NCBI GenBank assembly: GCA_002722245.1
Contig: PBLA01000007.1
Span: 119,723 to 165,391 of the forward strand
Origin: Flavobacteriales bacterium
Lineage (GTDB): Bacteria; Bacteroidota; Bacteroidia; Flavobacteriales_C; GCA-002722245
Direction of reading: 5' to 3'
DNA: 45,669 bases
Below the pieces are notes generated by a model that did no database searches, was not told the origin of the DNA, and saw only the letters and a list, made by a program, of their open reading frames with translations. Each line of letters opens with the position of its first letter. Within the stretch, counting starts at the first letter, position 1. Positions 32,321-41,232 of this stretch are shown here, in pieces. The translations under genes were made by a program, and so were the position numbers.

Positions 32321-33022
32321 TCACAAGGGCTTCATTTCTTTGTTCTTTTCATATACTGATACGACAATAAGCAACATAAGTAAATTATACATACTGTCTT
32401 CAATTGGAATGGTTGTTAATCTAAAGCCTATAATTTCCGTGGCATTATAATTCACAACTGGATATTTTGTAAAGTTTCCTGTAAGTGCCCCATTAATTAA
32501 AAGAAATGGCAACCAACTTATTAGGTAAGCAAATAAAAATCGACCCATCCAGTGTGGTCTTTTCCAAACCAAGAGCAAACTCGCTAAACCAGTTAAACTA
32601 AACGTAATACTTGTATATAAATTCGAATAATAAACACATGAATAAGAAATGAGAAGAACACCGAGCACAAGAAAAAAGGGAGGGGCAATCTTTTTAAGAT
32701 AATCGCGTTTAATATAATAATTCAACACTTCATAAATAAACACACATGCGTATGGAACAATTAAAAAAAATAACCATTCTTCAAGGGGGAGGTGAAACAC
32801 TTTTATCCCCAATATATATTGATCACTAAACCACCATACTCCTTTATAGGTAAACCAAACATCCCATGGAATAAAAATCACTGACATCACAATTATACCC
32901 TTGAAAATTGACCGCCATTGTGCATAAAGTTTTAAACGCCATTCAAAACTTTGCGACAACGGATAACTAAGGGAAAAAACCATCAAACCAAGGTACAAAT
33001 AGTTGGATTCTAGCCAATTCAT
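32321..33022 (-). CDS. crtYcd: Lycopene cyclase, fused CrtYc/CrtYd type
   Basis: 233 residues, six to seven membrane helices, made of two similar halves. The first carries PWD (52-54) and LPLEEWLFF (78-86); the second carries the matching IPIED (205-209) followed by a helix. This is the pattern of the membrane-integral lycopene cyclases known as separate CrtYc and CrtYd chains in actinobacteria and as fusions elsewhere. It closes beta-ionone rings on lycopene; whether it acts on one or both ends cannot be seen, but the neighbouring hydratase suggests gamma-carotene as an intermediate. Its ATG overlaps the cruF-like stop (ATGA, 33019-33022). Last gene of the operon. Confidence 0.85.
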   Translation of the reverse strand: MNWLESNYLYLGLMVFSLSYPLSQSFEWRLKLYAQWRSIFKGIIVMSVIFIPWDVWFTYKGVWWFSDQYILGIKVFHLPLEEWLFFLIVPYACVFIYEVLNYYIKRDYLKKIAPPFFLVLGVLLISYSCVYYSNLYTSITFSLTGLASLLLVWKRPHWMGRFLFAYLISWLPFLLINGALTGNFTKYPVVNYNATEIIGFRLTTIPIEDSMYNLLMLLIVVSVYEKNKEMKPL

Positions 33023-33651
33023 AAAAACAATTGAAGTGATGTGAAAAAATAAATTTGCGCCAGCATGACATACAAACTCGTTTTAAAGTGTACCTCCTTG
33101 AGATAAGCCTTTGCAATACCATTTACTACAAGTGATGTAGCCAACCACATGATGTAATTTTGGATGGGTATTTCTCCATGCGTCCAATTCCAGAAATCTA
33201 ACTGTATAGCTACAGGTTCAATTATGAAATCGAGAAAAACCATTAAGAGCGATGAAAGAATTACCTGAAACATACTCGAATTCACTATTTTGCCTGCAAT
33301 ACCCAAAGAGGAAAAACTCAAAATAAGCCAGTTCACACCAATTAACAGAGGCACATCAAATACTTTAAACCCAAGCGGATCTCCATAACTGTATGCACCA
33401 AATAAAACGCCTGTTTGTACACCTAAAACCTCTACAATAAAACCAAGACTAAAAGCAAAAAATACAGCCTTAATAAGTGAAACAGAATTCTTTCCGTTTC
33501 CCCACAATAATAAAAAAGCAGTAAGTAGGAGATTCATTGGCGTTAAACGAAGAACCTGGCTGCGCATTGAGGGCATAAGTATACCTATAACTCCCACCGT
33601 ATAAAATACGAATAAAGCAATTGGGATGATATAATTCTTATAGGTTTTCAA
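33019..33651 (-). CDS. cruF: CruF-type carotenoid 1',2'-hydratase
   Basis: 210 residues with about seven membrane helices. The central motif GFIVEVLGVQTGVLFGAYSY (residues about 70-89) followed by VPLLIGVNWLIL is typical of the CruF/DUF422 carotenoid proteins. Characterised members add water to the psi end of gamma-carotene or bisanhydrobacterioruberin. The start is TTG at 33651 inside a TTGA overlap with the stop of the CrtD-like gene; the first internal ATG (residue 26) would delete the first membrane helix. Assignment as 1',2'-hydratase rests on family and context. Confidence 0.82.
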   Translation of the reverse strand: MKTYKNYIIPIALFVFYTVGVIGILMPSMRSQVLRLTPMNLLLTAFLLLWGNGKNSVSLIKAVFFAFSLGFIVEVLGVQTGVLFGAYSYGDPLGFKVFDVPLLIGVNWLILSFSSLGIAGKIVNSSMFQVILSSLLMVFLDFIIEPVAIQLDFWNWTHGEIPIQNYIMWLATSLVVNGIAKAYLKEVHFKTSLYVMLAQIYFFTSLQLFL

Positions 33652-35105
33652 TCCACTAATTCACTTACAATTTTTGCGGAAGACAAAGCCAACGGAATAC
33701 CTCCACCTGGATGAACCGACCCTCCACAGAAAAAGAGGTTTGAATATTGGTTACTAAAGTTAGGGTGTCGAAAGAAAGCAGCCATTTTTTTATTTGAAGA
33801 ACTTCCATATAATGCACCCTTATATGAACTTGTTTTATTCTGAATTAATTGGGGATGTAAAATATTTTCATATTCAATGAATGACGAAATGTCCACCTTT
33901 AATATACGGTGTATTTTTGATAGAATATTACGTTTACAGGTAGTAATTAAATCATCCCATTGTTGTCCAGAATCTGCAGGAACATTGATCATGACAAACC
34001 AATTTTCACAGCCCTTAGGAGCATCTTTTTTATTGTGTTTGGATGAGATATTAATATAAACTGTAGGGTCATGATATACACTCTTTTTATTAAAAATGTA
34101 TTCAAATTCCTCTTTGTAATTTTCACTGAACAAAATATTGTGTAAAATAAGTGACTCAAATTCCTTTCTAATTCCCCAATAAAATATGAGGGCAGAACTT
34201 GATCGTTCTTGATTTAATATCTTTTGAGGAAGTTTACTATTTGGCAAGAGATTCTTATAAAATGGCACAACATCCATATTACTAACAAATACATCAGCTT
34301 TTATGTCTTTACCCATGTAGCGAGCTGATGTTACTTCGCCCGATAACGTCTCTAATTTTTCAATTTTAGCGTCAAAATGAAATTCAACTCCCGCCTTTTT
34401 GGCATAATGAAAAAGACTTTGTGTTATCGCATGCATCCCATTTTTAGGAAAATACGCGCCTTTTCCAAATTCCAAATGTGGAATGATATTGAGAATCCCC
34501 GGTGCAACATATGGATTTGATCCATTATATGTCGCATATCGATTAAAAAGCTGAACTAATTTAGGATGTTTTAAGGCTTTCGTATTTACCTTATCCATGG
34601 AAGAATTGATGTTCAAAAAAGGAAGCTTCACAAACGATCTAAACGTACTCAACGAAAAATAAGTACTTAGTTTATGCAGCGACTTTTCCAAAAAGAGCTC
34701 TGCTGTTGTCTCATAAATAAACGCACTTTTTGAAAGGTGCTTCATAACATCCTTAGCAGATACCTGAAGTTTTTCTTCCACCTCTTGCGCAAATTTATTC
34801 GCATCTCCCCAACCCTTTACAACCGTTCCATCCTCGTAAAAATATCGACAAACTTCGTCCAATTGGTCATATTCAAAGTCAACATCAACTCCATTTATCA
34901 CACTTAATACCTCCTCAACTTTTTCGGGCATGGTAAACAAAGATGGACCAGCATCAAAGCGAAACCCATTTCCTGAAATTTCAGTTAATTTTCCACCAGG
35001 ATAAGAATTGGCTTCAAAAACAGAAACGTGATACCCTTTTGATTTTAGTCTAATCGATGAAGCTAATCCTCCAATCCCTGCTCCTATAATAATGGCCTTT
35101 TTCAC
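33648..35105 (-). CDS. crtD: CrtD-type carotenoid 3,4-desaturase (CrtI family)
   Basis: 485 residues with GTG start at 35105, 6 bases after the crtZ stop. The N-terminal FAD-binding motif GAGIGGLASSIRLKSKG (8-24) is followed by PGGKLTEISGNGFRFDAGPS and a C-terminal FFCGGSVHPGGGIPLALSSAKI segment, as in CrtI-family desaturases. It is the second CrtI homologue of the operon. The GGKLTE and PSLFTMP pattern and the position beside a CruF-type hydratase suggest a 1-hydroxycarotenoid 3,4-desaturase, as shown for the CrtD of a myxol-producing flavobacterium. A role as carotene isomerase or second phytoene desaturase cannot be excluded. Confidence 0.8.
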   Translation of the reverse strand: MKKAIIIGAGIGGLASSIRLKSKGYHVSVFEANSYPGGKLTEISGNGFRFDAGPSLFTMPEKVEEVLSVINGVDVDFEYDQLDEVCRYFYEDGTVVKGWGDANKFAQEVEEKLQVSAKDVMKHLSKSAFIYETTAELFLEKSLHKLSTYFSLSTFRSFVKLPFLNINSSMDKVNTKALKHPKLVQLFNRYATYNGSNPYVAPGILNIIPHLEFGKGAYFPKNGMHAITQSLFHYAKKAGVEFHFDAKIEKLETLSGEVTSARYMGKDIKADVFVSNMDVVPFYKNLLPNSKLPQKILNQERSSSALIFYWGIRKEFESLILHNILFSENYKEEFEYIFNKKSVYHDPTVYINISSKHNKKDAPKGCENWFVMINVPADSGQQWDDLITTCKRNILSKIHRILKVDISSFIEYENILHPQLIQNKTSSYKGALYGSSSNKKMAAFFRHPNFSNQYSNLFFCGGSVHPGGGIPLALSSAKIVSELVD

Positions 35106-35111
35106 GTTAAA

Positions 35112-35555
35112 TTATTTTGACCGCTTCAGATATTTAAAAGGCACCCATAACATTCCAAAACATTCACCATCTTCTTTACCCAGGTGTTTGTGATGTATTT
35201 TATGTGCTCTTCTAATCCCTTTAAAGTACCAATGATTTGAATGCCTAAACCATTTTATTCGTTGATGAATGAATACATCATGTACCAAAAAATAACATCC
35301 ACCGTATAACGTTATTCCTATACCAATGGCAAAAGAAAAATCGCTACCAAAATAAGAGCCTAATAAGGTGCATAAAATACCTGGAGTTGCAAAAATGAGG
35401 AAGAAACTGTCATTTTTTTCAATAAACCCCGAATTTTCATGAGTATGATGATCTTTATGCAATGCCCATAGAAATCCATGCATTACGTATTTATGCGTAA
35501 ACCATGCTACCCCTTCCATCATAAAAAAAGTTGCTATGAATAGCCACCAAATCAT
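35112..35555 (-). CDS. crtZ: Beta-carotene 3-hydroxylase
   Basis: 147 residues from the ATG at 35555, which overlaps the idi stop as ATGA (35552-35555); a longer frame runs back into idi but lacks support. The four histidine motifs of the di-iron membrane hydroxylases are complete: HKYVMH (21-26), HKDHH (33-37), HDVFIH (92-97) and HKIHH (118-122). Three to four membrane helices surround them. It hydroxylates the beta ring at C3. Confidence 0.93.
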   Translation of the reverse strand: MIWWLFIATFFMMEGVAWFTHKYVMHGFLWALHKDHHTHENSGFIEKNDSFFLIFATPGILCTLLGSYFGSDFSFAIGIGITLYGGCYFLVHDVFIHQRIKWFRHSNHWYFKGIRRAHKIHHKHLGKEDGECFGMLWVPFKYLKRSK

Positions 35556-36088
35556 TTTACAGTTTGTTTTATATCGTTGATCTTTTGATTCGCTATTGGG
35601 AATAATATTTTGAACCATTCCGTGTAAGCGTCCGGTTTAATTTTCATGCTTAAAGCCAAATCATTCGAAGAAAGATAGGTGAAATCTTCTGCTTCATCTT
35701 TATTTAACACGGGTGCATCATCTGAAATCCCCATATAAACGTGGTCGAATTCATGCTCAATCAACCCTTTATCCAAGGACTTTTTATAAATAAAATCAAA
35801 TTGTTTTTCCAAATCAACCCGCATCCCCATTTCTTCAATTAATCTTCGTTCGGCAGCGTCTTTTGATGATTCCTCTGGATACGGGTGGGTACAACATGCA
35901 TTTGTCCATAATCCCCCTGAATGATATTTAGATGAAGCTCTTTTTTGCATTAACCACTCGCCCTTCGAATTAAAAATTAACACTGAGACCGCTCTATGTA
36001 AGATACCATGTTCATGCACATACATTTTTGGATAAACGCCTAATGCTTCATCTTGATTATTTACGTGGATTACGAGTGGTTCTTCCAT
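35552..36088 (-). CDS. idi: Isopentenyl-diphosphate delta-isomerase, type 1
   Basis: 178 residues. The Nudix-like core shows the catalytic cysteine region NACCTHPYPEE (about 64-74), RRLIEEMGM, and the metal/catalytic Glu of HEFDHVYMG. It interconverts IPP and DMAPP, feeding prenyl diphosphate synthesis. It begins 17 bases after crtB, and its stop overlaps the crtZ start. Being inside the carotenoid operon, it would raise precursor supply whenever pigment genes are on. A GGPP synthase gene (crtE) is not in the window. Confidence 0.95.
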   Translation of the reverse strand: MEEPLVIHVNNQDEALGVYPKMYVHEHGILHRAVSVLIFNSKGEWLMQKRASSKYHSGGLWTNACCTHPYPEESSKDAAERRLIEEMGMRVDLEKQFDFIYKKSLDKGLIEHEFDHVYMGISDDAPVLNKDEAEDFTYLSSNDLALSMKIKPDAYTEWFKILFPIANQKINDIKQTVK

Positions 36089-36105
36089 AATTTTCAGGTT
36101 ATTCC

Positions 36106-36945
36106 TTAAATCAAATTAAGTTTAATGTTGAAATAAGATTGAACCATTAACCCAAATTTATGATAATTATTTACTCGGATCCGGGTTTCCATAATTTGAT
36201 TAGAAGGTGTTTGTTGCAGCTTTTTCAACAGTTGCTTATAATACCTGAACGCTGTATAAACACCAAATTTTGAGGAAGCCGGTAATTGTTTAATCCCCTC
36301 GTAAGCAGCCGCAAAATCCTGTTGAATTTCTTCTACAATTTGACGCTTACTATCTGGACTTAAATTCAGTAAATCAACATCAGGAAAATAACTTCTCTCC
36401 AAAAGTTCAGCATCATTCTTTAAATCACGTAAAAAATTCACTTTTTGAAAAGCAGAACCTAGTTTCTTAGCTGAAGGAACTAATTTATTGTACAAGACAT
36501 CATCTCCGTTTACGAATACCTTAAGGCACATTAGGCCTACAACATCTGCGGATCCATAAATATATTCTTCATATTCCTCCTGGGTATTGTATTCTTTTTT
36601 CTCAAGATCCATTCGCATACTTTTCATAAACGCATCTACCAACTTTAAATCAATATTGTAGGTTTTAATTGTATTTTGAAAAGAATGTAAAATTGGATTT
36701 AAACTAATCCCCATCTCTAAGGATTGATAAAAGTCCCATTCAAATTTATCCAACAACAACTTTTTGTCTTTGTCATGAAAAGTGTCTACAATTTCATCGG
36801 CAAAACGCACAAAACCATAAATTGAATGAATAGCAGGTCTTATTGAAGGAGCAAGCATACTCACAGCAGAAGAGAATGAAGTGCTGTAGCCTTGAGTAAC
36901 TTTTTGGCTACATTCAAGAGCTACTTTGTTAAATAAATCCATCAT
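36106..36945 (-). CDS. crtB: Phytoene synthase
   Basis: 279 residues. The squalene/phytoene synthase motifs are visible: YSTSFSSAVSMLAP (20-33), the first Asp-rich site FADEIVDTFHDKDK (48-61) and the second QKVNFLRDLKNDAELLERSYFP (168-189, in part). It condenses two GGPP to phytoene. The ATG overlaps the crtI stop as ATGA (36942-36945); two consecutive Met codons make either start possible. Confidence 0.96.
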   Translation of the reverse strand: MMDLFNKVALECSQKVTQGYSTSFSSAVSMLAPSIRPAIHSIYGFVRFADEIVDTFHDKDKKLLLDKFEWDFYQSLEMGISLNPILHSFQNTIKTYNIDLKLVDAFMKSMRMDLEKKEYNTQEEYEEYIYGSADVVGLMCLKVFVNGDDVLYNKLVPSAKKLGSAFQKVNFLRDLKNDAELLERSYFPDVDLLNLSPDSKRQIVEEIQQDFAAAYEGIKQLPASSKFGVYTAFRYYKQLLKKLQQTPSNQIMETRIRVNNYHKFGLMVQSYFNIKLNLI

Positions 36946-38417
36946 AAAGCAGGCATTTTTATTGTGAATTTTTCAATTTGTTGGGAGGCAATCTTTCCTG
37001 AAATAATCGCGGGTGGCACTCCTGGTCCTGGAACTGTTAACTGGCCGGTAAAAAATAAATTCTTTACCTTTTTACTTTTAATACCTGGACGCAAAAATGC
37101 AGTTTGAGTTAGGGTATTTGCCATTCCATAAGCATTTCCTTTATAGGAATTATATTCTTTTTTAAAATCTTCTACGCAAAACGGTATTTTAAACATGACA
37201 TGCGCTTTAATTTTTTGTTGCGTTTGTTCTTCTAAACGATCAATTAGCATGTCAAAATAACGCTCGATCAAATCCTCATCATAGGTTAAATCCGGAGCTA
37301 AAGGTACTAGAAAAAAACCACACTCTTTTCCTTCAGGAGCTACCAAACTATCTGTTAGACTCGGAAAACTCGCATAAAACAAAGGAGCTTCGGGCCATTG
37401 AGGGTGGTCATATATTTCCGATGCGTGATTATCAAAGCTTTTGTCAAAAAATAAATTGTGATGAAATACATTTATAAGCTTTTTATCAAAACCAACATAA
37501 AAAAGCAAAGAAGATGGAGCAAAGGTTTTTTTGTCCCAATATTTTTCAGAGTATTGTCGTTCCTCTTCGTTAAGTAACTGTTCTGTATGGGCATAATCTG
37601 CACCACTTAAAACAACATCGGAAAGCTCCAATCGGTCACCCACTTGAATACCAATAGCACAACCATTTGAGGTCACTATTTTTTTCACATCTGCGTTTGT
37701 TTCATAAGTAACACCTAATTCTTTACCGAGTGAAACCATCGCATTCACAATTTGAACCATACCTCCTTTGGGATACCATGTTCCCAAAACAAAATCGGCA
37801 TAATTCATAAAATTATAAAACAAGGGAGTATCCTCTGGTTTTGCACCTAAAAATAATACTGGAAACTCTAAGATTTGAATGAGTTTTTGACTTTTAAAAT
37901 TCTTTCTAATTTTACCACTAATCGTGGTAAAAAATTGATTGATTTTTGATATCGTTTCTGGTGTAATGAGTTCCAAAGGACTATTTCCGGGCTTGTGCAC
38001 AATTTTGTCAATGGCCACGCGGTAATTGTACCCTGCATCTGCCATGAATTTTTTAAGTTTTTCCGCACTTCCCTTTTCCTCTTGTTCAAACACAGCAAGA
38101 ATTTCTTCGAACGTTCCAGGTATTTCAATCCCATTAAAATCATCAAAAAATACTTTATATGCAGGATCAAGTTTAACCAAGTCATAATAATCACTAGGTT
38201 TTTTATTAAAATCTTGAAAAAACTGCTCAAAGACATCTGGCATCCAATACCAACTTGGACCCATATCAAAAACAAATCCTTTATGGTGAAGTGTTCGAGC
38301 ACGCCCTCCTAGTTGATAATTCTTTTCGTAAACAGTTACCTTATGACCTTCCTTGGCTAGGTAGCAAGCTGCTGAGAGGGATGAAAACCCTGATCCTATG
38401 ATATTGACTTTTTTCAT
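36942..38417 (-). CDS. crtI: Phytoene desaturase
   Basis: 491 residues, beginning MKKVNIIGSGFSSLSAACYLAKEG (FAD Rossmann motif), then GGRARTLHHKGFVFDMGPSW and a C-terminal FTGQLTVPGPGVPPAIISG, the CrtI signature. It converts phytoene to lycopene. First enzyme gene of the operon, 44 bases after the carH-like gene. A 7-base inverted repeat with two-base spacer, ATTTGTT-AC-AACAAAT (38416-38431), overlaps its start codon. Confidence 0.95.
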   Translation of the reverse strand: MKKVNIIGSGFSSLSAACYLAKEGHKVTVYEKNYQLGGRARTLHHKGFVFDMGPSWYWMPDVFEQFFQDFNKKPSDYYDLVKLDPAYKVFFDDFNGIEIPGTFEEILAVFEQEEKGSAEKLKKFMADAGYNYRVAIDKIVHKPGNSPLELITPETISKINQFFTTISGKIRKNFKSQKLIQILEFPVLFLGAKPEDTPLFYNFMNYADFVLGTWYPKGGMVQIVNAMVSLGKELGVTYETNADVKKIVTSNGCAIGIQVGDRLELSDVVLSGADYAHTEQLLNEEERQYSEKYWDKKTFAPSSLLFYVGFDKKLINVFHHNLFFDKSFDNHASEIYDHPQWPEAPLFYASFPSLTDSLVAPEGKECGFFLVPLAPDLTYDEDLIERYFDMLIDRLEEQTQQKIKAHVMFKIPFCVEDFKKEYNSYKGNAYGMANTLTQTAFLRPGIKSKKVKNLFFTGQLTVPGPGVPPAIISGKIASQQIEKFTIKMPAL

Positions 38418-38461
38418 TTGTTACAACAAATAAAATAAACGTTAAACAAAAATGCAAATTT

Positions 38462-39355
38462 TTACCTCAATTTGTTTAACCCTTCTTCAGTATTATTAAA
38501 CAGTTTTATCCTTGAATTCTTATTTTCAGCTACTCGAGCAATTCGACCAAAAACAAAAAATTCGGATTTGTGCTTAAACAAAACTTGTTCCTCAATAGTT
38601 TTAAGATAATCATTTACATCTTTCTCTGCAGGATAAACAGTAAAATAAGACACAAATTTAGCGTTTGGATAACATTCCAAAACGCTCGTTAAACTATGAA
38701 TGGGTACACTCGTTCCTAAATATACTATCTGCTTTCCATCAAGCGCAAGTTCGTACGCAATATACAGCAACCCCAAATCATGTATTTCTTCATCGGGCAA
38801 AAACAATACATACACCTCAGAAAGATTCGAGTGAACTTGTTTGACGCGTTCAATATTTAGTAATAGCTTTTGATAAATTAAACTAGAGATGAAATGCTCA
38901 TGCGCAGGTGTTAAACTATTCGTTTGCCAGTGAAATCCAATATATTCAAGCAAGGGTATAAATACGTCCAAAAAAATCGATCTGAATGAAAGCTCTGAAC
39001 TCATCTTGTTAAAAATTGACTCAAATTTAAATTGGTCATACCCCAACATGGCAATTTTTAACTCGTCCAAAAAATGGTCTTTGTCTCCTTTTTTAACGGT
39101 TAGCTCATTCACCATCGATTGAATTTCATCTAAAGAAAGAGAGGCAATTTTTGAAATCTTTACGCCAGCGTTGTACAGAAAGGTAACGTTCAATAATTTT
39201 TGTAAATTTTCAATACTGTAGGAACGTATATTAGAATCCGATCGATTCGGAGACAACATTCCATAACGTTTCTCCCATATTCGTATAGTATGTGCTTTAA
39301 TACCAGAATACCGCTCTAAATCTTTTATGGAGAATACAGTAGATATTTTGTTCAA
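38462..39355 (-). CDS. carH: MerR-family regulator with B12-binding domain, CarH-like
   Basis: 297 residues. An N-terminal MerR helix-turn-helix (FSIKDLERYSGIKAHTIRIWEKRYG, 8-32, in part) is followed by a helical cap and a cobalamin-binding Rossmann domain. The cap has W143-x9-E153-H154, the W-x9-EH motif in which the Trp and His of CarH contact the upper face of adenosylcobalamin. The lower-ligand histidine matches H192 in PDEEIHDLG. In CarH, light breaks the Co-C bond, the repressor falls apart and carotenoid genes are switched on. It is the first gene of the carotenoid operon and would repress its own promoter. The identity as a light sensor is inferred from motifs; B12 binding is untested. 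Confidence 0.85.
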   Translation of the reverse strand: MNKISTVFSIKDLERYSGIKAHTIRIWEKRYGMLSPNRSDSNIRSYSIENLQKLLNVTFLYNAGVKISKIASLSLDEIQSMVNELTVKKGDKDHFLDELKIAMLGYDQFKFESIFNKMSSELSFRSIFLDVFIPLLEYIGFHWQTNSLTPAHEHFISSLIYQKLLLNIERVKQVHSNLSEVYVLFLPDEEIHDLGLLYIAYELALDGKQIVYLGTSVPIHSLTSVLECYPNAKFVSYFTVYPAEKDVNDYLKTIEEQVLFKHKSEFFVFGRIARVAENKNSRIKLFNNTEEGLNKLR

Positions 39356-39376: not shown

Positions 39377-39407
39377 CAAATCTACAACGATATTTTAGAG
39401 CAGGCAA
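39377..39407 (-). promoter_or_regulatory. carH-crt operon promoter
   Basis: On the minus strand: TTG (39407-39405), 20-base spacer, TAGATTTG (39384-39377). This is a complete Bacteroidota promoter within the 52-base gap between the LytTR regulator gene and carH. Transcription should start near 39371, about 16 bases before the carH ATG. Confidence 0.75.
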
Positions 39408-39419
39408 CTATTGCTCTAA
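39395..39419. promoter_or_regulatory. Candidate operator: inverted repeat around the crt -33 element
   Basis: Perfect 8-base arms TTAGAGCA (39395-39402) and TGCTCTAA (39412-39419) with a 9-base spacer; the -33 TTG of the crt promoter is in the spacer. One arm also encodes the last residues of the LytTR regulator (Leu-Glu). As a hairpin it lacks a T-run, so an operator for the adjacent carH-like repressor fits better than a terminator, but this is inference. Confidence 0.5.
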
Positions 39420-40169
39420 CCAATTCTTAAAAACAGGAGTCTTTGCCCTTGAAACGATAACCTCACCCTCTTGTTTTGGCTCCAATTCTATTTTTAGTTT
39501 TCCATTAAAATATTGAGCAATTTTTGAAATCGCTGAAACACTGGTAATAAATTGTCGATTTAAGCGAAAAAATTGCTTTGGATCAAGTTGGGTTTCCAAC
39601 TCATCTAAAGAATGATTTATAAAATAATTACTTCCTTCTTTTGTTTTAATGATCACCGCCTTATCCTCTGTAAAGATGTAGGCAATATCATTTGCAGAAA
39701 GCGGAATAAAGGCATCAGCTTTAGAGATCAGAAAACGTTGCTTGTACAAATTCCCACTAGCATGAGGTTGCTTTAAGGACGTAAAATCTATTTCTTGTGA
39801 AGGTGATTTAGTGAAATTTCTTTTATCGAACTTTTCAAAACTCTTCATCAACGTTTCCTTACTGAAGGGTTTTAGTAAATAATCAATACTGTTCAATTCA
39901 AAAGCTTTTATCGCATATTGATCGTAAGCCGTTGCAAAAACGATTGGGCATTCAATATCTATTTGCTCAAAAATCTCAAAACTCACCCCATCCGCTAATT
40001 GTATATCAGAAATTACTAAATCTGGCTCCTGATGTTCTCCAAACCACTCTACTGCATCTTCAACTGTATCAATAACCTCTAAAATTATAGCCTCAGGCCT
40101 ACATTCTAAAATTAACTCCTTTAAACGTTTTGCCGCTGGAATCTCGTCTTCAATGATTAGAATATTCAT
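39408..40169 (-). CDS. LytTR-family response regulator
   Basis: 253 residues from the ATG at 40169, which has an AAGGAAA Shine-Dalgarno-like stretch just upstream; a GTG five codons earlier is also open. The receiver domain (1-120) has D55 as phosphoacceptor (LVISDIQLADG), with E7-D8 in the acidic pocket and a Lys in LLKPFSKE. The C-terminal LytTR DNA-binding domain spans about 150-250 (FRLNRQFITSVSAISKIAQYF). It follows the histidine kinase gene by 46 bases and precedes the carH-crt promoter directly. Confidence 0.93.
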   Translation of the reverse strand: MNILIIEDEIPAAKRLKELILECRPEAIILEVIDTVEDAVEWFGEHQEPDLVISDIQLADGVSFEIFEQIDIECPIVFATAYDQYAIKAFELNSIDYLLKPFSKETLMKSFEKFDKRNFTKSPSQEIDFTSLKQPHASGNLYKQRFLISKADAFIPLSANDIAYIFTEDKAVIIKTKEGSNYFINHSLDELETQLDPKQFFRLNRQFITSVSAISKIAQYFNGKLKIELEPKQEGEVIVSRAKTPVFKNWLEQ

Positions 40170-40215
40170 AATCGTTTCCTTCACAACAAATAAACAAAAT
40201 ATTATGCTTGTTTTT

Positions 40216-41232
40216 TTAAATATCCCCTGGATAAATTATCGGAATATGTACCTTGAACTGATTATCCGATTTTTCAATACTTATTTTTTTATTGGTAAAT
40301 TGTTCAAATTGAGTCCTTACATAGTTCAATCCTAAATTGGTGGATTCATTTTGAAAAGTATTTTTAGGATTAATATTATTCACAATCGTTATAAAATCTC
40401 GGTGGACTCCAATGGTTAATCTCAAAGGTCTTTTTTTTGTTACGGCATTATGCTTCGCCGCATTTTCAACTAAATTCTGAAGGGCAAGAGGAGGAATTAA
40501 AGAATGGTAATAGCGAGCCGGAATATTCAATTCCATTTGAAAGTTTTCGCCAAATCTCGTTTGAATTAGAAAACAATACTTTTCTACAATCTCAACCTCT
40601 TCCTTCAACTCAATGAGTTGATTTTCATTATTTTGTAATATGAAATCATAAAGATCCGATAACTTTTTTACAAACTCAACTGCCTTTTTAGGTTCATCTA
40701 AGGTTATACTGGCCACAGTGTTGAGCGAATTAAATAAAAAGTGTGGGCTCACTAAGTCTTGTAATGTTTTTTTTTCTGTTACCTTGGATAATTGCTGAAA
40801 ACTCTGTGTTTCTTTTTTCAAATATTCATTTTGTTGGTTAAGGTATAAAAGATAGTATCCAAAATTGAGTAAAAACGGTTGGCTAAATCCAAAAATCCAA
40901 CCATACATCTTTACCATTCTTAAATCATAGGAAGTCTTCATCAAAATATAGCTCAAAACATGTATTGTTCCGCCCTGAATAAGTCCCGTAAAAATCGAAT
41001 ACCTAATTTCTCTATTTAACTGAAAAATATGACTATTTTCTATTTTACCCATATTTTGCAATTCGTCTGGAAGTTGTTTTCGAAAGGTATATTGTAGAAG
41101 AATACCTCCCCCAACAAAGGCAACAATAATAAGCAAAGGAATAGACCATGAATCTATACTCAACAGTGGTAAAGCACTGAATAAAATACTCATCAAAAAC
41201 CAGATGATAATAAATTGTTTTTTTAGAATCAC
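40216..41232 (-). CDS. LytS-type sensor histidine kinase, GTG start
   Basis: 338 residues with about four membrane helices in the first 140 residues, then the His_kinase domain: H164 in LVSPHFLFNSLNTVASI and a C-terminal ATPase part with PPLALQNLVENAAKHNA (N box). No periplasmic domain of note, so the signal may be sensed within the membrane. It has GTG start at 41232, overlapping the stop of a 13-codon ORF (MLFAVKVTILVVS) as GTGA; the first internal ATG is residue 14. It partners the LytTR regulator downstream. Divergent from rpiB. Confidence 0.9.
   Translation of the reverse strand: MILKKQFIIIWFLMSILFSALPLLSIDSWSIPLLIIVAFVGGGILLQYTFRKQLPDELQNMGKIENSHIFQLNREIRYSIFTGLIQGGTIHVLSYILMKTSYDLRMVKMYGWIFGFSQPFLLNFGYYLLYLNQQNEYLKKETQSFQQLSKVTEKKTLQDLVSPHFLFNSLNTVASITLDEPKKAVEFVKKLSDLYDFILQNNENQLIELKEEVEIVEKYCFLIQTRFGENFQMELNIPARYYHSLIPPLALQNLVENAAKHNAVTKKRPLRLTIGVHRDFITIVNNINPKNTFQNESTNLGLNYVRTQFEQFTNKKISIEKSDNQFKVHIPIIYPGDI

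Follow-up and report, generated by a model that had tools for sequence, protein, structure and literature searches.

A CarH-type regulator ahead of a carotenoid operon and a predicted operator shared with photolyase, cryptochrome-like and pterin genes in Bacteroidia

Sunlit waters are rich in Bacteroidota, whose light sensing has been little studied. Light-induced carotenoids were reported for a Chryseobacterium, the responsible regulator not being known (PMC7064467). A stretch of 45,669 nucleotides from a Flavobacteriales bacterium (hereafter the window) contains a gene for a MerR-type protein (merR) followed by genes for carotenoid (crt) synthesis; the initial annotation had taken its product for a CarH-like, vitamin B12-dependent repressor and proposed that the pigment genes are induced by light. 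This raises the question to which class of regulator the protein belongs, which DNA site it might use, and which genes other than those for carotenoids are marked by this site.

The regulator, its predicted cobalamin site and the adjacent genes

The merR frame (38462–39355, minus strand) is real as delimited in the initial annotation, and its product contains both a MerR_1 and a B12-binding_2 domain (Table 1); read as an open frame it starts with TTG, the first in-frame ATG following only at M33. The Pfam search gave no match of this protein to PF02310; since 28 of 80 relatives do match this family, the weak score points to divergence and not to a missing fold. Similarly, the CarH equivalog of NCBIfam (NF052513) was hit with E 1e-19 and 71 bits, far under the curated cut-off of 400, which indicates a distant relative of the characterised CarH proteins; the equivalog assignment was dropped and the broader class, CarH/class I LitR, was kept. 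The top match among PDB sequences is Thermus CarH/LitR (3WHP; phmmer, E 4e-12), and a profile made from the 80 relatives finds Thermus CarH with E 9e-27 over residues 4–240 of the merR protein. In the AlphaFold model (pLDDT 92.8) the Rossmann half of the B12 domain is predicted with high confidence (AlphaFold, VIA), and cap and Rossmann domain fold as in 5C8D (VIA Z ~18, 2.5 Å over ~195 cobalamin-domain residues). When the model was ranked with Foldseek and VIA-align, Thermus CarH, a light-responsive MerR domain of Chloracidobacterium and the photocobilins scored Z ~16–19; methionine synthase (MetH, Z 15.6) lies below or level with these light-sensing domains, and AppA (Z 14.7) lies below them.

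CarH homologues are defined by the motifs Wx9EH and ExHx2G, and B12-independent CarA by loss of an intact Wx9EH (PMC8156234, PMC9304148). In the merR protein the residues named in the initial annotation, W143, E153, H154 and H192, were found where it had placed them, and on alignment with Thermus CarH they correspond to W131, E141, H142 and H177. Counted over 132 distinct Bacteroidia homologues, W143 is present in all, E153 in 131, H154 in 124 and H192 in 131, and the W-x9-E spacing is constant (132/132); the presence of these residues in the merR protein is not due to chance. Between H154 and H192 lie 37 residues, compared to 34 in Thermus (35–39 across the 132 homologues), so that the remark that this distance is a few residues longer was correct. 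Other parts of the site are less well preserved. From the remainder of the B12 motif (x41 SxV/T x22-27 GG) there is S236 at x40, followed by xxT (T239), and a single G270 instead of GG. Three of the four elements of the SignatureFinder set (GxxW, EH, GxxH, GxxxP; PMC11796333) are present, as G140xxW, EH and G214xxxP218; GxxH is replaced by ExxH, the glycine being found there in 55 of the 132 relatives. Finally, Q144 takes the place of Thermus H132, the light-state ligand. The degenerate SxV/T...GG, the lack of a PF02310 match, ExxH for GxxH and Q144 for H132 all weaken the assignment to the CarH type.

The eight homologues without H154 carry glutamine there and are the sampled Psychroflexus regulators (L002–L009), which offer a naturally occurring version of the light-sensing site, W-x9-E-Q in place of E-H, with the operator described below intact. 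Two single regulators are altered at other residues of the cobalamin site, where glutamine replaces H192 in L118 (G168) and glycine replaces E153 in L140 (G294); they are candidate B12-independent derivatives.

The closest known system in sequence and fold is CarH/LitR of Thermus thermophilus (5C8D, 5C8E, 3WHP), which shares the two-part architecture, both motifs and the role as crt regulator; it differs by an identity of about 20%, by the three residues fewer between EH and the histidine, by H132 and by GG. CarH and CarA of Myxococcus xanthus are likewise MerR-B12 repressors of a carotenoid operon, with an operator overlapping the promoter. In CarA, however, the Trp of Wx9EH is missing and B12 is not required, and membership in this group was rejected for the merR protein with its W143. 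Class II LitR (PplR/PmlR of Pseudomonas), which consists of the four-helix half without a Rossmann half, depends on a LOV protein and uses the site TGTACA-N12-TGTACA, was rejected as well, as the Rossmann half is confidently predicted here. MliR of Bizionia (PMC9478572) was dropped as a near relative because it has no effector domain.

The pigment operon claimed to lie directly downstream is present, with seven crt-type genes all on the strand of merR in the order crtI-crtB-idi-crtZ-crtD-cruF-lycopene cyclase; the crtZ-like gene had no family match in the Pfam and NCBIfam searches. Linkage of merR, crtI and crtB recurs in many genomes. Two reports describe a similar gene set in the myxol cluster of Nonlabens, the first gene of which likewise encodes a MerR regulator (PMC11855829), and, for strain GF1, zeaxanthin genes preceded by a MerR-type gene that contains a vitamin-B12 domain (PMC6974559); their accounts of these clusters note the gene as such, without operator or regulon. 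The arrangement of merR and crt genes on its own is therefore a further case of one already noted. Directly upstream of merR, on the same strand, a LytS-type histidine kinase and a LytTR response regulator are encoded (39408–41232), which are also found in the congener G001.

Regarding the cofactor, the host genome encodes a PduO-type cobalamin adenosyltransferase; a search of this genome for the CobA/BtuR family found none, and methylmalonyl-CoA mutase was not found in the host genus. A long open frame of the host genome with a strong B12-binding match is consistent with MetH. Because the adenosyltransferase is present and the mutase was not found, adenosylcobalamin (AdoCbl) needs another user in the host, which could be the CarH-type regulator.

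Table 1. Features of the merR-crt region (window coordinates)
Feature	Position	Strand	Basis or remark
MerR-B12 regulator (merR), CarH/class I LitR type, TTG start	38462..39355	-	297 aa; ORF, Pfam, NCBIfam, PDB profile, AlphaFold
Winged-helix MerR DNA-binding domain, residues 8-72	39140..39334	-	Pfam PF13411 MerR_1, E 1e-11
Four-helix cobalamin cap domain, residues 96-164	38864..39070	-	Pfam PF02607 B12-binding_2, E 4e-7
W143-x9-E153-H154 motif, caps adenosyl group in CarH	38894..38929	-	alignment of homologues
E190-I-H192-D-L-G195, ExHxxG lower-ligand motif of B12 proteins	38771..38788	-	alignment of homologues
Putative Bacteroidota -7 promoter box, TAGATTTG	39377..39384	-	consensus match; overlaps O1 left arm
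Predicted operator O1, TTTGTTTAATAAAAAGCGATAAACATTGAACAAA	39347..39380	-	0 mismatches to TTTGTTTAA-N16-TTNAACAAA
Weaker operator-like site O3, within merR 3' end	38471..38504	-	2 mismatches; coding constraint may account for match
Predicted operator O2, TTTGTTTAACGTTTATTTTATTTGTTGTAACAAA, between merR and crtI, touches crtI start codon	38417..38450	-	1 mismatch
crtI-type phytoene desaturase (CrtID)	36942..38417	-	NCBIfam NF058655, 708 bits vs cut-off 640
crtB, phytoene synthase	36106..36945	-	PF00494
idi, isopentenyl-diphosphate isomerase	35552..36088	-	NF002995
crtZ-like carotene hydroxylase (His-box protein)	35112..35618	-	His motifs, conserved place in crt operons
crtD, 1-hydroxycarotenoid 3,4-desaturase	33648..35105	-	NF042421, 684 bits vs cut-off 500
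cruF-like carotenoid hydratase	33019..33651	-	PF04240
Lycopene cyclase, CarR/CrtYcd type	32321..33022	-	PF18916 / TIGR03462

A predicted operator and the genes behind it

Reading of the flanks of merR genes revealed the recurrent pair TTTGTTTAA...TTAAACAAA, and among the gaps of 4 to 30 that were scanned, one of exactly 16 stood out sharply (70 pairs downstream, 31 upstream). The resulting 34-bp inverted repeat, TTTGTTTAA-N16-TTAAACAAA, is the predicted operator; it covers the merR start codon and the putative -7 box (O1) and recurs between merR and crtI (O2). The right arm of O1, TTGAACAAA, coincides with codons 1–3 of merR, the start codon included. The -7 box of Bacteroidota has the consensus TAnnTTTG, and in 32 cases it and the operator arm overlap with a single, constant offset (average per offset 0.8), an arrangement consistent with repression through occlusion of the promoter. 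An operator-like inverted repeat lies within 250 bp of merR at 63 of 132 loci, compared to 9 of 2575 control windows. In Thermus the operator consists of tandem 11-bp direct repeats, nAnnTnnACAn, and the known CarH operators are such direct repeats with a TnnACA core; the half-site predicted here, TTAAACA, includes this core (TAAACA), the two copies of which are, however, inverted and ~24 bp apart from centre to centre. CarH operators were described as plastic (PMC9304148), and the inverted arrangement may be one variation among them.

A set of 346 Bacteroidia genomes was scanned for the exact pattern TTGTTTAA-N16-TTAAACAA, ten weak regulator matches (E ~1e-5 or worse) being counted as absent. 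The pattern occurs 217 times, versus 5 times when read backwards, and 139 of the 235 regulator-bearing genomes contain it, as opposed to 3 of the 111 that lack the regulator (Fisher p 8e-28, kinship not corrected); when only the 21 families represented in both groups are considered, a Mantel-Haenszel odds ratio of 50 is obtained (p 5e-8). This co-occurrence suggests that the inverted repeat is bound by the merR protein. In the other 96 regulator-bearing genomes the exact site was not found, and sites may be degenerate or different there. A perfect operator ahead of PTPS-folE was also observed in G007 (C73:22620, L189), where a search for a regulator homologue found none. As forward counts with two mismatches are near those of the read-backwards control, interpretation was confined to sites with up to one mismatch in the host genome and to exact sites class-wide, and the rhodopsin, flavin-reductase and photolyase sites of congeners were taken as illustrations only.

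Outside the window, operators with at most one mismatch precede three more groups of genes in the host: a run of an SDR, a DUF2805 and an FAD-binding photolyase/cryptochrome-like gene; PTPS, folE and a small unannotated gene; and genes for a photolyase-related DPRP protein and an amine oxidase, with a family 18 glycosidase gene in divergent orientation. A rhodopsin gene of the congeners G001 and G002 is preceded by an operator with one or two mismatches; none was found ahead of the host rhodopsin gene (G000 C1:70948-71601, L265). Pfam families were counted for 124 genes beside sites, mostly exact class-wide ones (L194–L263), and include GTP cyclohydrolase I (folE; 10), PTPS (8), crtI-type amino oxidase (8), rhodopsin (5), photolyase (4), DUF2805 (4) and phytoene synthase (3). 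At about one folE per ~3000 genes the folE count is far from random, although many of the sites are orthologous to one another. Fasciclin and DUF4397 proteins, five each, were also seen among the 124 neighbours. The commonest neighbours outside the host lineage are ECF-type sigma factors (sigma-70 region 2; 13/124). LitR and LitS of Streptomyces form a repressor-sigma cascade, and the ECF neighbours suggest a cascade of this kind.

The best available argument that the operator regulon answers to light is its likeness to the gene set of Pseudomonas LitR, a regulon comprising light-inducible phrB, folE, cryB and others, the clusters of which also hold genes for SDR and FAD oxidoreductase (PMC9758184); photolyase, cryptochrome-like, folE, SDR and FAD oxidoreductase genes make the class II LitR set very similar to the one found here. 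No description of a CarH regulon or of a 34-bp operator in Bacteroidota was found in the literature searched, which covered few subscription papers, nor was a CarH precedent for the inverted 34-bp geometry; the operator and the shared regulon are thus the new part.

Proposed mechanism and its rivals

Both defining motifs, the structural match, the conserved crt linkage and the shared operator, which also marks photolyase, cryptochrome-like and folE genes, bear out the CarH-like identity proposed in the initial annotation, and the merR protein is very likely an AdoCbl-dependent, light-labile repressor of the CarH/class I LitR kind, as judged from sequence. Light control of the crt operon is strongly suggested on the same grounds, and we infer that the protein binds AdoCbl, changes its oligomeric state and responds to light. 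In the dark, AdoCbl would be sandwiched by the four-helix cap, with W143, E153 and H154, and the Rossmann domain, with H192 as lower ligand, and would hold the protein in a DNA-binding oligomer; seated on O1, with the -7 box of its own promoter, and on O2 ahead of crtI, this oligomer would block RNA polymerase. Light would break the Co–C bond and loosen the oligomer, and the crt operon and merR would be derepressed. Through the same operator elsewhere in the genome, the cryptochrome/photolyase-like, PTPS-folE and photolyase-related operons would belong to the same light regulon. For Bacteroidia as a class, a light regulon made up of a CarH-type cobalamin repressor and the 34-bp inverted-repeat operator, and encompassing carotenoids, photolyases and cryptochrome-like proteins, pterin synthesis, ECF sigma factors and, in some species, rhodopsins, is probable.

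Other explanations have to be weighed. The same light genes and operator could be served by a repressor resembling CarA or class II LitR, with light acting on it not through cobalamin as the sensor but through a further photoreceptor or an antirepressor. In Myxococcus, CarA retains the His motif and is nevertheless B12-independent (PMC8156234), class II LitR reaches its targets via the LOV protein (PMC9758184), and the merR protein has lost the GG portion of the B12 motif; yet Wx9EH, which separates CarH from CarA (PMC9304148), is intact and nearly invariant among the merR homologues, the half that class II LitR lacks is part of the model, and an adenosyltransferase is encoded without methylmalonyl-CoA mutase, so that such a repressor is unlikely. 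That the inverted repeat serves a different regulator, with the MerR protein acting elsewhere, would account for the perfect site of G007, where no MerR homologue was detected; it is quite improbable in view of the association of regulator and site within families, of the site at the merR promoter itself, and of the TnnACA core of proven CarH operators in the half-site. Finally, the genes targeted throughout the class are of the photolyase, cryptochrome-like, rhodopsin and folE type and not those for B12 uptake or B12-dependent enzymes, and we consider it very improbable that the protein senses cobalamin status, repressing genes for pigment and repair under plentiful AdoCbl, with light of little importance, even though it has the B12-domain fold and AdoCbl could serve as a signal in a host without AdoCbl mutases.

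If the protein is a light-labile cobalamin repressor as proposed, the operator predicts that the supply of vitamin B12 gates the expression of pigment, DNA-repair and, in some species, rhodopsin genes. With a recognisable operator, the question of light sensing in Bacteroidota becomes one of genome search, followed by an easy gel-shift or reporter test, and the inverted operator would represent a new DNA-binding geometry for CarH, useful for green-light optogenetics.

Host family and origin of the cluster

The host had been called a flavobacterium, which was not borne out in the family sense: in the genome collection its order comprises 10 genomes of one family (f1), distinct from the family of Psychroflexus (f52), and the host stands outside Flavobacteriaceae. 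A maximum likelihood tree of 50 regulators places the merR protein of the window and that of G001 in a supported group (99/96) together with Flavobacteriaceae-type proteins; the regulators of G003, a member of the host genus, and of G008 and G009, from the host family, lie on the opposite side. The crtI of the window is 58–65% identical to the Flavobacteriaceae-type set, as compared to 51–52% to G003, G008 and G009. As regulator and crtI group with Flavobacteriaceae-type genes and not with those of G003, G008 and G009, the host regulator was likely gained by horizontal transfer, probably together with the crt operon, and a Flavobacteriaceae-like source is suggested. This comparison concerns positions 32321–39355 of the window and the loci L138 and L154–L156.
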